Of a DNA stretch of 33,019 nucleotides, positions 7,407 through 33,019 are shown piece by piece. A program made the translations under genes and the position numbers. This DNA comes from a virus. Positions within the stretch are counted from its first letter, which is position 1. Every line of letters starts with the position of its first letter. Location of the stretch: IMG/VR virus record IMGVR_UViG_3300037541_000425, positions 1 to 33,019 of that record. One strand, written 5' to 3'. Below the pieces are notes generated by a model. It saw only the letters and a program-made list of their open reading frames with translations. It searched no databases and had not been told where the DNA came from.

Positions 7407-8851
7407 GCTCCTTGATTAAAGATTTCAGGAAATACAAAACTAAACTCTACATCAAATAAATCCTGCTTCGCTTGCTTGATTGAAAATGTACCCGGTTCAA
7501 TTAATACTTGAACTTCATCATAAAAACCAGTTAAAGCATTTGGTGTTACCATGTAAACCATCGGAGAATATAAAAGCGATTCAATTCCGTCTGCATCGTT
7601 TTTATCTAAGCCGGTCATGCCGATCTGCCTTTTCTTAAATCCAGTCTTTTTTAAATATCTTGAAAAACCTTTAAGATTATCAATTCGATTAAACGCTTTT
7701 GCATACGTTCCGTTCGATTCGACTTGCATCGATTCGCGATAATTGCCTTCGAACAAATAGAATCCGTAAGATCCATCTGTTGCTAGCCATCTTAAAAAAA
7801 CTGAATTGCACAATTGTAAATCAACCGGGCGAACCTTTACCATTCGCTGCTCAGTAACACGAACATTACCTATTGCCTTTTGTAACCATACCCAAACTTT
7901 CCGCCTATTATCAACTGTTGAAATACCACCCAAAGAAAACAAAAATGTATTAAATTCACTTTGTGGTGGTACTGTTAACGCAACTAATCCAGTTGATTTA
8001 GTATTGGGCGGTAACTCATCGATGTTAGTCGTGTAATTGGTAAAAGTTGCAATGTTTACGTTTCCGGTTAAGTAATTGGTGTCCCACAAAAAAGATAAGT
8101 GATATGGGAAGTTTGGGTAAACTGTAGGAATTTGAAACGGGCTTAAGAACTTTCCCGGTGTTGTATCGTCGGAAATAAAGAAATCTCGGTAGTTGCCATT
8201 GTAGTCGTGTCCAATTTGAAATGCACCATTAACAGCATACCAGTCATTACCATTTGCAACTTCTGAATTAGCTGATCCCGTCCAAAACTCTTTAGTCGCA
8301 ACCTTAAATTCAAACATCGAATTGTTGCTAATTTGATTAGGCGTTAAAACTTCCGATTCGATATTGTAATCACTTTCGTTATTAAGCTTTGACTGTAGGA
8401 TGCCTTGAATATTGCACTCAATCAATCCGTTTGTATTAGGTGTGTATTTGATCGTTGCTATATCATTATCCAATAGATCAGAAACCCTGATAGTAATATA
8501 ATAGTTTGGTCGTTCAGTTAATAAATTAACGTAACCATCCAAAACAAACGAACCCGATGATGGTGCGGAAATAACAATTGATGTTGAAGATGGGATGCTT
8601 AGTATTTCAAACACTCCATCAAACTTTCCCTCAACAAATACATAAACGCTGTCCCCAATAGTAACTGTATCGGGTGGAACGGCTGTAAAATTAATCCGTG
8701 CGTTACCTGCAACATCAGCAATAGAAGCAACTAATACATCTTTTCGGGTGTAACTAAATAGCACTGGATTCCAAGCAGCAACCCAGCGACAATAAACCGC
8801 AGGCGAATCGAAATCAAATATCTCTTCCGGGGTATAGTTAGTTACCAACAT
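7403..8851 (-). CDS. Beta-rich tail protein, 482 aa
   Basis: A 482-residue protein with strong beta character, many Tyr/Phe/Asn and a Ser/Val-rich stretch near residues 95-105 that looks like a small beta-sandwich. No signal peptide, coiled coil or enzyme motif is visible. It overlaps the tail-completion gene by 14 bp and the 656-residue protein by ATGA, forming a tight tail operon. Most likely a minor tail or baseplate protein; the exact part cannot be told. Confidence 0.55.
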   Translation of the reverse strand: MLVTNYTPEEIFDFDSPAVYCRWVAAWNPVLFSYTRKDVLVASIADVAGNARINFTAVPPDTVTIGDSVYVFVEGKFDGVFEILSIPSSTSIVISAPSSGSFVLDGYVNLLTERPNYYITIRVSDLLDNDIATIKYTPNTNGLIECNIQGILQSKLNNESDYNIESEVLTPNQISNNSMFEFKVATKEFWTGSANSEVANGNDWYAVNGAFQIGHDYNGNYRDFFISDDTTPGKFLSPFQIPTVYPNFPYHLSFLWDTNYLTGNVNIATFTNYTTNIDELPPNTKSTGLVALTVPPQSEFNTFLFSLGGISTVDNRRKVWVWLQKAIGNVRVTEQRMVKVRPVDLQLCNSVFLRWLATDGSYGFYLFEGNYRESMQVESNGTYAKAFNRIDNLKGFSRYLKKTGFKKRQIGMTGLDKNDADGIESLLYSPMVYMVTPNALTGFYDEVQVLIEPGTFSIKQAKQDLFDVEFSFVFPEIFNQGA

Positions 8852-9344
8852 CTTTTATCTCTTGTTTTATTTGAATTACAAAGGACGATATTAATTGCTT
8901 TTTAAGAGTATCAATCCGTCCGTCATTTATTACACCCATGATTATTCCGGTGGGCTTACTACGACCGTATGAATCGACACCGTTATATAATGCAGTTCCT
9001 TCGCGATGAATCTTACGGCTAATTAGAAACGCTAAAGAATCTTTACTAACCGCCCGACCATTTGCATCAGGCTTGGGTACGATTCCTTTTTCATCTATCC
9101 ATCTTCTAATCTGCTGTTTCAATGCACCGTTTCCACCATTAACAGTTGGCTTTCGTCCAACTTCAGCTGCCCCTGCATAAGCTGCAGCAAATAGTCTTAG
9201 TTTGTTTGGGTTTAATTCATACCGAAACGACTTAGCCAAATTGCCGGATGCAGAAATGCCGGAACTCTTTACTGATGCAGATAAATCATTCTGCAACTTA
9301 GTTGCAAAGTCTTGAACAATCTTAGCATCAATTCCTAGTAGCAT
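8838..9344 (-). CDS. Tail completion / head-tail joining protein (HK97 gp10-like)
   Basis: A 168-residue protein resembling the HK97 gp10-like family: an amphipathic N-terminal helix (DFATKLQNDL), a central 'AAEVGRKPT' stretch with basic residues, a helix with 'WIDEKGI', a segment with paired Arg/His and a Gly-Thr ('KIHREGT', about 110-116), and a C-terminal helical tail. Members of this family sit at the head-tail interface. The gene lies 3 bp after the tail-terminator-like gene and overlaps the next by 14 bp. Family call by pattern and position, not alignment. Confidence 0.6.
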   Translation of the reverse strand: MLLGIDAKIVQDFATKLQNDLSASVKSSGISASGNLAKSFRYELNPNKLRLFAAAYAGAAEVGRKPTVNGGNGALKQQIRRWIDEKGIVPKPDANGRAVSKDSLAFLISRKIHREGTALYNGVDSYGRSKPTGIIMGVINDGRIDTLKKQLISSFVIQIKQEIKDVGN

Positions 9345-18568: not shown

Positions 18569-19107
18569 TGTTCAGTCGCTTTAATCATATCCTTAACCAT
18601 TTTTGCCTCCTTAATAATCGATTCGATCTTTTGCATTTGGGGAGTGAATGATCTAAACATTGCGGTTAATCCTTCCTCGGTAGTGCATCCGCTTAATTTC
18701 TCGATCGATTCCTTAATTGCCAGTTCGTCAATTACCGGATCGGGTGTAGGTGCTGCAGTTGGTTTCGGTGCAAATGTTCTGATACGTAAAGCATCATGTT
18801 CTTCTCCGAAAGCTTTAATCTTAGCGGTGTAAATTTGAACTTGTAAACCTTGCCACTTTTCGATGAATGGTGATTTAGCAATTTTCGATATAGTCTTGCT
18901 GTTGGTTGCGTTCAGGATCATCGGTTTCCAGTTATTCTCCATCCAATGAACAACGGTGCAATCTGTTTTTTTGCCATCAGGATTTGATACTGATTCGACA
19001 CGCACGAATTTAATCGTTAGGATAATTTCGCCTCCATCGGTAGGCATGCAGTACGCTCCCATGTAGTCCGGGTTGCGAAGTTTTTTGTAGTGAGTTAGTA
19101 TTTCCAT
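18565..19107 (-). CDS. Putative recombination partner of the exonuclease, 180 aa
   Basis: A 180-residue protein with a beta-rich N-terminal half (residues 20-115; 'MILNATNSKTISKIA' then 'WQGLQVQIYTAKIKAFG') and a helical C-terminus after a Pro/Ala linker (about 114-122). The beta part could be an OB-like fold, and such genes often precede YqaJ nucleases in Bacteroidota phages, so single-strand DNA binding is a guess. ATGA couples it to the nuclease. Its ATG is preceded by TAACCCCA, a leader shared with three upstream genes. Confidence 0.5.
   Translation of the reverse strand: MEILTHYKKLRNPDYMGAYCMPTDGGEIILTIKFVRVESVSNPDGKKTDCTVVHWMENNWKPMILNATNSKTISKIAKSPFIEKWQGLQVQIYTAKIKAFGEEHDALRIRTFAPKPTAAPTPDPVIDELAIKESIEKLSGCTTEEGLTAMFRSFTPQMQKIESIIKEAKMVKDMIKATEQ
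18996..19006. repeat. CGACACGCACG 11-mer, copy 1
   Basis: One of three copies in the window (also 19661-19671 and, inverted, 31399-31409). This copy lies inside the 180-residue gene's coding sequence, with CGACACGCACGA in common with copy 2. Confidence 0.6.
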
Positions 19108-30739: not shown

Positions 30740-31273
30740 ATGAAAATACTTGTTATTGGTTTAGGTAGTTCAGCTGCTAAGTTGGAAGGTTATGATTATT
30801 ACATTGGGGTGAATGACTGCCCATTTGAAGTCAATGCATTAATTTGCGTTGATCCCCCTCGCGTTTTTAGAGATTATCGTAAATGGGGTATCATAAATCA
30901 CAAAGCGATTCTTTATACCGATTGCTTAGAATGGCATGCTTACCGGAACAATGTTATAAGTATTGAGCGGTGTCGTTATCGGTCGGATGTTTCAGGATTA
31001 GGTAATAAAGAAAAGTACCCATTCTCAATTTGTTCGCCTTTTGTTGCTGTAGCCCATGCTTATTTTATGGGAGCAACTGAAATTCATTTAAACGGGGTTG
31101 ATTTAATCGGGCATCATTCATTAGGGCATCCGGATAAAATTGAAAGGTGTAGAAAAGACTTTGCAGCTTTACGCGATGAACTTAAAAGATTGGGAGTTGA
31201 TTTACGTTTAGCAACCGATCAAAAAGGTGCTTTAACGGATATTATTAAAAAAGTTTCAATAGATGTTGTTTAA
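30740..31273 (+). CDS. Rossmann-like glycosylation-type protein (DUF115-like), only plus-strand gene
   Basis: A 177-residue protein beginning at ATG 30740; an earlier ATG at 30677 lies inside the divergent protease gene and adds 21 unlikely residues. The opening MKILVIGLGSSAAKL is a nucleotide-binding-type first strand and loop. 'CSPFVAVAHAYFMGATEIHLNGVDL' (about 118-142) matches a pattern in DUF115/MAF-type and sialyltransferase-like proteins, where the last strand ends LxGVD. It may use a nucleotide sugar, in line with the sugar cassette nearby, but a catalytic site is not proven. Its transcription is divergent from the head genes. Confidence 0.55.
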   Translation: MKILVIGLGSSAAKLEGYDYYIGVNDCPFEVNALICVDPPRVFRDYRKWGIINHKAILYTDCLEWHAYRNNVISIERCRYRSDVSGLGNKEKYPFSICSPFVAVAHAYFMGATEIHLNGVDLIGHHSLGHPDKIERCRKDFAALRDELKRLGVDLRLATDQKGALTDIIKKVSIDVV

Positions 31274-31294
31274 TCAAAAATGTTTGTATGTTTG
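31266..31294 (+). promoter_or_regulatory. Promoter for the candidate small RNA
   Basis: TATGTTTG (31287-31294) matches the -7 box exactly and TTG (31266-31268) lies 18 bp upstream, inside the 3' end of the plus-strand gene. Transcription would begin near 31300, exactly where the hairpin structures start. Confidence 0.6.
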
Positions 31295-31299
31295 TCATC

Positions 31300-31384
31300 G
31301 AAACAGTTGGACGTTTCTTAAGACTTATCTACTTGGGTAGATTTACACAAAAGCCTGATCGCGTCCAACCGACTCAGGCTTTTT
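31300..31384 (+). ncRNA. Candidate small RNA with kissing loops and its own terminator
   Basis: Three hairpins in 85 bases. P1: GAAAC/GTTTC (31300-31304 with 31313-31317) with loop AGTTGGAC. P2: ATCTAC-TTGG-GTAGAT (31327-31342). P3: AAAAGCCTGA/TCAGGCTTTT (31349-31358 with 31374-31384), a terminator with T-tract at 31380-31384. The P3 loop contains CGTCCAAC (31362-31369), perfectly complementary to GTTGGACG (31306-31313), so loops P1 and P3 can kiss over 7 bp (8 if the stem opens). A matching promoter is directly upstream. P3 is symmetric enough to end minus-strand transcripts too. Function is unknown. Confidence 0.6.
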
Positions 31385-31398
31385 CGTTCTTTATATCC

Positions 31399-31409
31399 CG
31401 TGCGTGTCG
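31399..31409. repeat. CGTGCGTGTCG 11-mer, inverted copy 3
   Basis: Same 11-mer as at 18996 and 19661, here inverted. It forms the left arm of an inverted repeat (31397-31406 with 31446-31455). Confidence 0.6.
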
Positions 31410-31670
31410 TTTCATACCTTTTAGGAAGACAATTGATACACTGCAGCACGCACGGGGAAGAATGACAAACTAAAATCAATCGATGAAAAACCTTAAAACA
31501 TAGCCGTTATTTACATTCTTGCGAAGTCAAATCGTGCAAGATGAAAACGACTTAAAGGTTAAGCCCGAAGCAATTAGATTGCACAACAAGCTGTTAAATG
31601 TAATGTCAGGACGAAACACTATCCGGTTACAGCCGAACTATAAACGACCGATTCTCAGGAAGGAAATAAG

Positions 31671-31728
31671 GGTTAGCAAATATGTTTATCTCTTATTAAG
31701 GGGTAAGGGGTAAACACTTTTGCTGACC
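31671..31728 (+). other. Long hairpin with two T.G pairs
   Basis: GGTTAGCAAA pairs with TTTGCTGACC, then after a 2 by 2 loop TGTTTATC pairs with GGTAAACA, then CTTA with TAAG around an 8-base loop. Two T.G pairs fit RNA on the plus strand only; on the minus strand they would be A-C mismatches. Confidence 0.6.
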
Positions 31729-31763
31729 AACCATTGCACTCCCTCAAACTCGTCAGGAACTAA

Positions 31764-32537
31764 CTATACAAATTCAGGTAATGGAATATTAAGAGTTTCA
31801 ACATCAACAAGTGGAGTTAACCCGTGAACTGTTAATCCAAGATTGCCACCGTCCCAATTTTCATAAGCCTCAACGATTTCATTAACTCGTTCTTGGTAGT
31901 TGCACAAAGCACTTGAATTAATAAGCTTCATCCTTATATCATCCCGAACATAGGAATAGTGATGCATTTGAATTGTTGACCTCGGAAAAACTAAAACTTT
32001 ATTTGATGGCAGTTTTCGCGTTGGATCAGCAAGTACTGGAAACTGTACAAACTCCTTAAACTTTCTTATATCTTTTGTATCAGTCTTAAAAAATAGTGTT
32101 ACGTAGTATGTTTCAGGTTCGGCATAAACCATTCGATTGTTACCGTAGTAAGTTTGCATCATACATGCCGAGGCATCACAACCGGATCTTTCAAATTCAT
32201 TCTTAGCCCGTTTCAGTTCTGCAATAGAATACATCTCATCGCAGTCCATAGTCATAAACATTTCACATCCGTTTTGCCGGGCTATTTCAAGACCTATGTT
32301 ACGTTTTGCAATTTCATTAAAATGTGGAGTTTTTGTAAGATCAGGGATGTACTCAATTATGTAATGAAACCCAAGCCGATTAAGTAACGCTGGTATATTC
32401 TTTTCAATTATATTACCGTAGTTTGAAATAGTTTGATAAACACCAATTAAAATATCTGTAACCGGTTGAATATTTAATACTGAATTTTCGAGGTTTTCAA
32501 CTCCATCAAAAATGTTGTAGGCTACTGCTAACTTCAT
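31764..32537 (-). CDS. GT-A-like glycosyltransferase, 257 aa
   Basis: A 257-residue protein with a GT-A plan: first strand MKLAVAYNIFDG, a helix and strand ending 'EYIPDLT', and MFMTMDCDEMY (93-103), where DCDE is the DxD metal/sugar-nucleotide site. Downstream the motif 'MHHYSYVRDD' (about 190-200) may supply acceptor-side His and Asp. It overlaps the oxygenase by ATGA and is the last gene of the cassette. No membrane segment, so it acts in the cytoplasm, probably on virion proteins. Its stop faces the plus-strand gene across the 490-bp region. Confidence 0.7.
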   Translation of the reverse strand: MKLAVAYNIFDGVENLENSVLNIQPVTDILIGVYQTISNYGNIIEKNIPALLNRLGFHYIIEYIPDLTKTPHFNEIAKRNIGLEIARQNGCEMFMTMDCDEMYSIAELKRAKNEFERSGCDASACMMQTYYGNNRMVYAEPETYYVTLFFKTDTKDIRKFKEFVQFPVLADPTRKLPSNKVLVFPRSTIQMHHYSYVRDDIRMKLINSSALCNYQERVNEIVEAYENWDGGNLGLTVHGLTPLVDVETLNIPLPEFV

Positions 32538-33019
32538 GATCTAAATATTGTATCGTTTGCTTTCCAATCCATTTCAGGTGCAGTGTAATAGTACAAAGCT
32601 ATTGACTTACGGCTTTTATCTTTTGGGCAAGTTAATGGTTCGGGATGACCATGCCAAGATTGATCAGTTGTGCTAAATATTACCATGTTCCCAAGTTCAG
32701 GAACTACACAAACTTTTTCATTTAGATCGGTATCGTACAATTTGATCCCACCGCCCCATTCAGGTTTCCAAGATTCGTTGAGATAGATTAATACGTTTAT
32801 CCTACGATTTGCTCCCCATAAACCATGCTTATCAAAATCTACATGAATTCCTAATTTACCACCAGTCTTAATTTCGTGATATCCACCACCAATTAAATAA
32901 GGATCAGGCATTAGGTTTTGGATGCCCGTTAATTCTGTAAGCCATAATAAAAAAGGTTCAGAATTGCAAAACCTAACTAAAGTCTTTGCATTATCAGATA
33001 GTTTTAATTCGCCAAAAGT
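32534..33019 (-). CDS. 2OG-Fe(II) oxygenase, catalytic part (joins 1-315)
   Basis: Residues 68-228 of the joined oxygenase, cut by the window end (full gene 315 to 1, then 32905 to 32534). Fe(II) ligands are His126 and Asp128 in IHVDFD and His190 in SWHGHP; Arg204 in SRKS would bind 2-oxoglutarate. 'RRINVLIYLNESW' and the GGGIKLY turn between them are typical of prolyl 4-hydroxylase-type (P4Hc) enzymes. It would hydroxylate a protein side chain, a sugar or another small target. It overlaps the following glycosyltransferase by ATGA. Its position among three glycosyltransferases suggests that hydroxylation creates a site for sugar attachment. Confidence 0.85.
   Translation of the reverse strand, partial: TFGELKLSDNAKTLVRFCNSEPFLLWLTELTGIQNLMPDPYLIGGGYHEIKTGGKLGIHVDFDKHGLWGANRRINVLIYLNESWKPEWGGGIKLYDTDLNEKVCVVPELGNMVIFSTTDQSWHGHPEPLTCPKDKSRKSIALYYYTAPEMDWKANDTIFRS
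32906..33019. repeat. Right copy of 114-bp terminal direct repeat
   Basis: Same as bases 1-114 except A at 33006 (G at 101). It lies wholly inside the oxygenase gene. Confidence 0.95.

Follow-up and report, generated by a model that had tools for sequence, protein, structure and literature searches.

A probable new small RNA whose first loop is complementary to its own terminator loop, from a probable Bacteroidota phage

The intergenic DNA that follows the gene P0001 in a viral genome probably encodes a new small RNA, in which the loop of the first hairpin (P1) is complementary to the loop of the RNA's own terminator hairpin (P3). The sequence comes from an IMG/VR virus record, and the whole stretch that was analysed, referred to here as the window, is 33,019 nucleotides long. 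The host is probably a member of the Bacteroidota, as indicated by the type of promoter and by weak homology of structural proteins to those of Bacteroides and Cellulophaga phages. The window and 12 further viral-contig loci with the same architecture have been compared (n=13), and two more loci carry an identical copy. Across this set a kissing helix covaries, P3 is retained, promoter and U-tract patterns recur, reading frames are lost, the distribution is sporadic and inserts are exchanged at a hot spot. The reading that we favour, with moderate confidence, is that of an accessory ("moron"-type) non-coding RNA gene whose product would be self-terminating, with the P1 loop docked on the terminator loop and with occasional read-through. 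An initial annotation of this DNA had proposed a small RNA gene with promoter, kissing loops and terminator, and the comparative evidence over 13 loci supports it. The conserved stretch is larger than the 31266-31384 first reported and extends to ~31768 in window-type members.

The proposed gene, module 1, runs from a promoter to a terminator on the plus strand. The Bacteroidota-type promoter (31266-31294) consists of TTG at 31266-31268, an 18-nt spacer and TATGTTTG at 31287-31294, and its TTG overlaps the end of P0001, which has its stop at 31273. This TTG-N18-TATGTTTG arrangement had been pointed out in the initial annotation, and its spacing is kept across the homologues. TAnnTTTG is present in 13 of 13 homologues, partly through selection by the scan, and a TTG lies 17-19 nt upstream of it in 12 of the 13 loci, despite flanks that differ between groups. 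The Bacteroidota housekeeping promoter is quoted in PMC7366714 as 'TAnnTTTG' at -7 and 'TTTG' near -33, and the predicted module 1 promoter matches the consensus as quoted there. P1 (31300-31317) is a 5-bp stem of GAAAC (31300-31304) and GTTTC (31313-31317) that closes the loop AGTTGGAC. P2 (31327-31342) pairs ATCTAC (31327-31332) with GTAGAT (31337-31342) around a TTGG loop, and P3 (31351-31384) pairs AAGCCTGA (31351-31358) with TCAGGCTT (31374-31381) and has TTTTT at 31380-31384. All three hairpins are where they had been placed, and they are perfect as described. The kissing helix would join GTTGGACG (31306-31313) to CGTCCAAC (31362-31369), which lies within the P3 loop; the loop-loop complementarity noticed earlier is exact over 8 bp. 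The claim of a terminator, made from the P3 hairpin and its T-tract, also holds beyond the window: at each of the 13 loci P3 is succeeded by 5-7 U, 84-98 nt past the -7 element. The predicted mature RNA, as deduced from promoter and terminator, would span 31298-31386 and measure ~88 nt.

The homologues were reached by several routes. A search with the P0001 protein led to one contig, L002, which is a close relative, and in its alignment with the window the region past P0001 is conserved at least as well as P0001 itself. The kissing helix of L002 is GTAGGACG/CGTCCTAC in place of the window's GTTGGACG/CGTCCAAC. The structural genes are encoded on the other strand from P0001 (30740-31273, plus strand, 177 aa), which is conserved in L002 and L106 and has no match in Pfam or PHROGs. 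Exact patterns from conserved blocks retrieved L004, L005 and L006, and later L106, L107, L108, L109 and L113; L111 duplicates L108 and L112 duplicates L107. L017 was obtained when contigs retrieved by means of the L004 and L006 capsid protein were searched with a profile. L023 and L024 were found by a structural scan and then by reading of the neighbouring contig, and they have the architecture alone in common with the other members. The loci form group A (the window, L002, L004-L006 and L106), group B (L017, L107-L109 and L113) and group C (L023 and L024). Two further contigs, L027 and L036, have a module 1 identical to that of L017 and a different downstream region. A search with the HNH protein discussed below reached only one contig. 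A DNA search of plasmids and named phages gave no match and thereby no cultured phage, and the homologues come from metagenomic contigs. A covariance model, R1, found no match in 395 Bacteroidota genomes; the underlying sequence alignment had left the hairpin arms out of register, so that the model contained just 7 pairs, and this null result is therefore weak evidence. Matches to GTAAACAC..TTTTGCT..ACC in bacterial genomes were judged to be chance.

The kissing helix has 10 different sequences in the 13 loci, and all 90 of its 90 pairs are Watson-Crick. The five closest comparisons (window/L002, window/L006, L017/L108, L107/L109 and L023/L024) contain seven double changes and no single-sided change. 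Cognate loops are complementary over 6-8 nt and non-cognate loops mostly over 2-5 nt, and 200,000 permutations never gave the observed cognate total. Among single shuffled loop pairs, ~5% have at least 6 nt of complementarity, so one copy could be luck but the whole set could not. For these counts the helices were registered by hand, which favours pairing; as kissing segments, however, the longest stretches over which the P1 and P3 loops are complementary were simply taken. The P3 stem has 97 Watson-Crick and 9 GU pairs, that is 106 standard pairs of 107, in 8 helix sequences over the 13 homologues. The P1 stem is kept in 13 of 13 with at most one mismatch, which occurs in three members, and it is mostly invariant, so it shows little covariation. 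A hairpin of other sequence can be drawn at the P2 position in most relatives, and P2 is less certain than P1 and P3. Conservation of the terminator helix alone, with no compensation elsewhere, was looked for as the outcome that would speak against the RNA; compensation in the kissing helix was seen instead.

The initial annotation also held that such nested pairings are rare in random DNA, and two results agree with this. The fold of the 91-nt RNA has z = -2.9 and is beaten by 1 of 200 shuffles, and a scan of ~1.2 Mb of related phage sequence for TAnnTTTG, a T-tailed terminator and a loop-complementary 7-mer returned only the homologues. The same 7-mer scan gave zero matches in a first-order Markov control, and a 6-mer version added group C plus a few chance matches, mostly inside genes. 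That the element is a product of chance, or a simple terminator of P0001 in which only the terminator helix has meaning, is a reading to which we give almost no credence. The element does lie behind P0001, in the same orientation, and has a terminator at its end. However, the cassette stands without P0001 in L004-L006, L017 and others, and the covariation and the permutation result contradict this explanation.

Homology extends beyond the terminator. Over window 31286-31768, identity is 95% with L004 and 93% with L005, with both flanks unrelated, and the homology of this cassette extends to L006, again in unrelated flanks. Module 2 (31385-31464, plus strand) is a long hairpin, CGTTCTT...CCCGTGCGTG / CACGCACGGG...AAGAATG; its main stem is unchanged in L002, L004, L005 and L106 and is cleanly missing from L006 and group B. 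Module 3 (31483-31768, plus strand) is a second conserved structured non-coding domain, as indicated by cassette homology, by its fold and by frames that are not kept, and it has distant homology to L017 (E 1e-14). A 457-nt RNA covering 31274-31730 folds with z -5.2. Within module 3 a pseudoknot (31518-31553) is formed by the stem CTTGC (31518-31522) / GCAAG (31536-31540) and by pairing of the loop AAGTC (31524-31528) with GACTT (31549-31553). In groups A and B the stem covaries as CTTGC/GCAAG, CCTGC/GCAGG, CTCCGA/TCGGAG and CCCGT/ACGGG, with 54 Watson-Crick pairs and one GU pair of 55, and the loop partners GTC/GAC become GCC/GGC in L106. A long G-rich hairpin of 10 + 15 bp follows at the 3' end (31671-31728), and from group to group its two arms vary in concert, apart from a single C-A mismatch in L108. 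The 3' edge of the cassette, ACTAACTAT(A) at 31759-31768, has as its L106 counterpart ACTAACTATG, the start codon of an HNH gene. It had been stated that no protein is encoded here. ORFs do exist at 31288-31473 and 31519-31713, but indels break both frames in relatives, which rules out a protein reading. A weak match to a model of the 3' domain at window 18580-18664 (minus strand, E 0.06) is probably chance. Inspection by eye revealed neither a second promoter for module 3 nor an alternative antiterminator that would pair with the arms of P3. Such strong conservation of module 3 past a terminator exceeds what a short sRNA alone explains.

The cassette occurs in unrelated flanks in two phage types and has a sporadic distribution. 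In window-type phages it lies behind P0001, close to the genes for head protease and capsid, and in the other type it adjoins the major capsid gene. A group B module 3 pattern, with up to 2 mismatches allowed, matched only five group B records among 46 searched. The cassette is missing from ~40 close relatives, an absence read from this one group-B-biased pattern and supported by the structural scans, which covered the retrieved parts of those contigs. A replication origin or packaging element was judged unlikely because of this absence. The cassette sits at a hot spot of insertion that adjoins the capsid operon. At the capsid-side site, flanks that are 94-100% identical surround unrelated inserts in L017, L024, L027 and L036. 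The insert in L017 is a group B element in minus orientation, and that in L023 and L024 is a group C element in plus orientation. The group C elements (L023 725-1207 and L024 1630-2093, plus strand) have an unrelated downstream RNA of 300 nt, with long-range stems GTGCAAGGG/CCCTTGCAC and CGAGGGG/CCCCTCG (CAGGGG/CCCCTG in L023), and may represent a separate large RNA.

The genes carried with the cassette vary, and their proteins are mutually unrelated. Behind module 1 there is a GIY-YIG endonuclease gene in L027 (100-474, minus strand; PF01541, E 2e-9) and a Mom-family DNA modification gene in L036 (1361-1924, minus strand; PF25680, E 6e-25). L106 has an HNH endonuclease gene (8753-9286, minus strand; 177 aa; PF01844, E 2e-10) and a 98-aa gene (8460-8756, minus strand) between the cassette and a converging gene. 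The window lacks these two genes, and its cassette abuts the converging gene; at this edge the last codons of that gene read PEFV* in the window and PEFQ* in L106, with 87% identity overall. This suggests that the window has lost its cargo. A gene for a small predicted lipoprotein lies directly downstream of the cassette in L004 (674-928), L005 (67-321) and L006 (1623-1880), on the minus strand in each, and a small lipoprotein gene is a common form of phage moron. No same-strand gene lies directly downstream in the window, L107, L108, L109 or L113. A gene for a 2OG-Fe(II) oxygenase (PF13640) at window 32534-33019, on the minus strand, runs off the window end. Compensatory changes persist between L107 and L109 and between L108 and L113; as these members carry no cargo, selection seems to act on the RNA itself.

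A mechanism can be proposed from these features. Transcription by the host's RNA polymerase, carrying the housekeeping Bacteroidota sigma factor, would start near 31298, and the nascent RNA would fold in order into the P1 hairpin, P2 and the terminator hairpin P3. The P1 loop would then dock on the P3 loop by 6-8 base pairs, giving an intramolecular kissing pseudoknot. Most polymerases would halt at the U-tract and leave a compact RNA of 90-100 nt that acts through its fold. A minority would read through into a 430-490-nt RNA with a second pseudoknotted domain, which in some phages would include a cargo gene, for example that of a homing-type endonuclease. From the patterns described, we infer transcription, read-through, docking in cis rather than in trans and a benefit to the phage. 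The initial annotation suggested that the RNA may regulate a phage or host target. The conserved P1 loop already has a pairing partner in cis, and no convincing antisense target of this loop was found in the window; one 8-nt site beyond its own partner lies at 9154, on the strand that does not carry the genes of that region.

Other readings give the weight to the downstream sequence or to the DNA. Module 1 might be an attenuator leader, a conditional terminator gating a long transcript, with the downstream RNA or cargo gene as the product that matters. The cargo ORF that starts at the cassette edge in L106 would fit this, as would the same-strand cargo downstream in L004-L006 (lipoprotein), L027 (GIY-YIG) and L036 (Mom) and the conservation of module 3, for which no separate promoter was seen. 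The arrangement is similar to that of type III toxin-antitoxin loci, in which a leaky terminator lies between the RNA and the protein gene. However, the window, L107, L108, L109 and L113 keep compensatory changes although they lack a same-strand gene directly downstream, an antiterminator able to pair with the P3 arms was not seen, and the cargo proteins are unrelated to each other; we regard an attenuator as unlikely. We consider it improbable that the whole 430-490 nt forms one large ornate RNA of the GOLLD/ROOL kind, with a loop-loop contact that is possibly intermolecular and with the U-tract as a minor 3' end. ROOL and GOLLD multimerise by kissing loops (PMC12286853), and the element has several pseudoknots, a phage location, no constant protein partner and, in group C, a downstream domain whose long-range stems differ compatibly between L023 and L024. 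Yet every copy has a good terminator with 5-7 U inside it, module 1 occurs with unrelated downstream sequence in L027 and L036, module 2 is dispensable in L006, and no ROOL or GOLLD match was obtained with Rfam.

The exchange of different inserts at one intergenic site, in both orientations, together with the attached HNH and GIY-YIG genes and the sporadic distribution, would also fit a mobile cassette at the DNA level. Its hairpins would be recombination or homing features, and selection would act on endonuclease-driven movement, in cis or in trans, and not on the RNA. DNA mobility does not predict distant loops that covary in an RNA-like manner or the retention of a spaced promoter and a U-tract, and this explanation is very doubtful. 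It is a long shot that the loci represent a new class of mobile element, in which a promoter-driven pseudoknotted RNA moves among phages together with interchangeable HNH or GIY-YIG endonucleases and has a role in mobility, re-entry immunity or nuclease control; the fast-changing kissing helix would then be a type-specific tag and the long domain would be swappable. The ten natural compensated kissing helices, formed by two loops, offer an experimentally simple feature with ready-made mismatched controls. To our knowledge, RNAs encoded by Bacteroidota phages are little charted. Because a structured RNA is linked here to a capsid-side hot spot and to interchangeable endonuclease or modification genes, the parts played by phage moron RNAs become open to direct test.

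Comparison with known systems places the element near several of them. Rfam at gathering thresholds assigned no family in the window, relaxed searches (E 10) of the window, L106, L113, L017 and L024 gave only chance-level scores, and no tRNA was found in the window. ROOL and GOLLD (PMC12286853) are likewise phage-borne and structured, with several pseudoknots and kissing loops and no fixed protein partner; however, the element described here is shorter (430-490 nt at most), is modular, has an internal intrinsic terminator and has no Rfam match. HEARO, the omega RNA associated with IscB, likewise lies directly upstream of an HNH gene, as the RNA does in L106. The L106 protein has 177 aa and only an HNH domain in Pfam, whereas the IscB type has RuvC plus HNH; other members here carry a GIY-YIG gene, a Mom-like gene or none, and the Rfam model of HEARO gave no match. 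A structured RNA combined with an optional homing-type endonuclease gene and apparent mobility is also seen in phage group I introns that carry HNH or GIY-YIG genes, but the present element is intergenic and has its own promoter and terminator, and in the window and four relatives the models of group I and group II introns, including Intron_gpI, found nothing even at E 10. The order of promoter, pseudoknotted RNA, terminator and optional nuclease gene is shared with type III toxin-antitoxin loci (ToxIN). In contrast, the nuclease here is of DNase type and often absent, and ~300 nt of conserved RNA lie in between. No tandem repeats are visible in module 1, and the cargo found is HNH, GIY-YIG, Mom or none, with no ToxN-like RNase.

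AgvB and AsxR (RF02702 and RF02703) are moron-encoded sRNAs of enterohaemorrhagic E. coli prophages, and were found as Hfq-bound anti-sRNAs that act on host sRNAs (PMC4104026). Like the present element, their genes are short, accessory to the phage and located outside coding regions. L017 scores 17.5 bits with the AsxR model against a gathering threshold of 63, and 14.4 with AgvB against 56, so the element is not a member of either family; it differs from both in its fold, a P1-P3 kissing pseudoknot, and in that an antisense target was not found in the window. The promoter spacing, the distance to the G+C-rich hairpin P3 and its U-tract, and a compensated structure with no conserved frame are those of an intrinsically terminated bacterial sRNA gene. 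While the features tested that define ROOL and GOLLD, HEARO and the introns are lacking, the kind to which the element would belong is that of the phage moron sRNAs.
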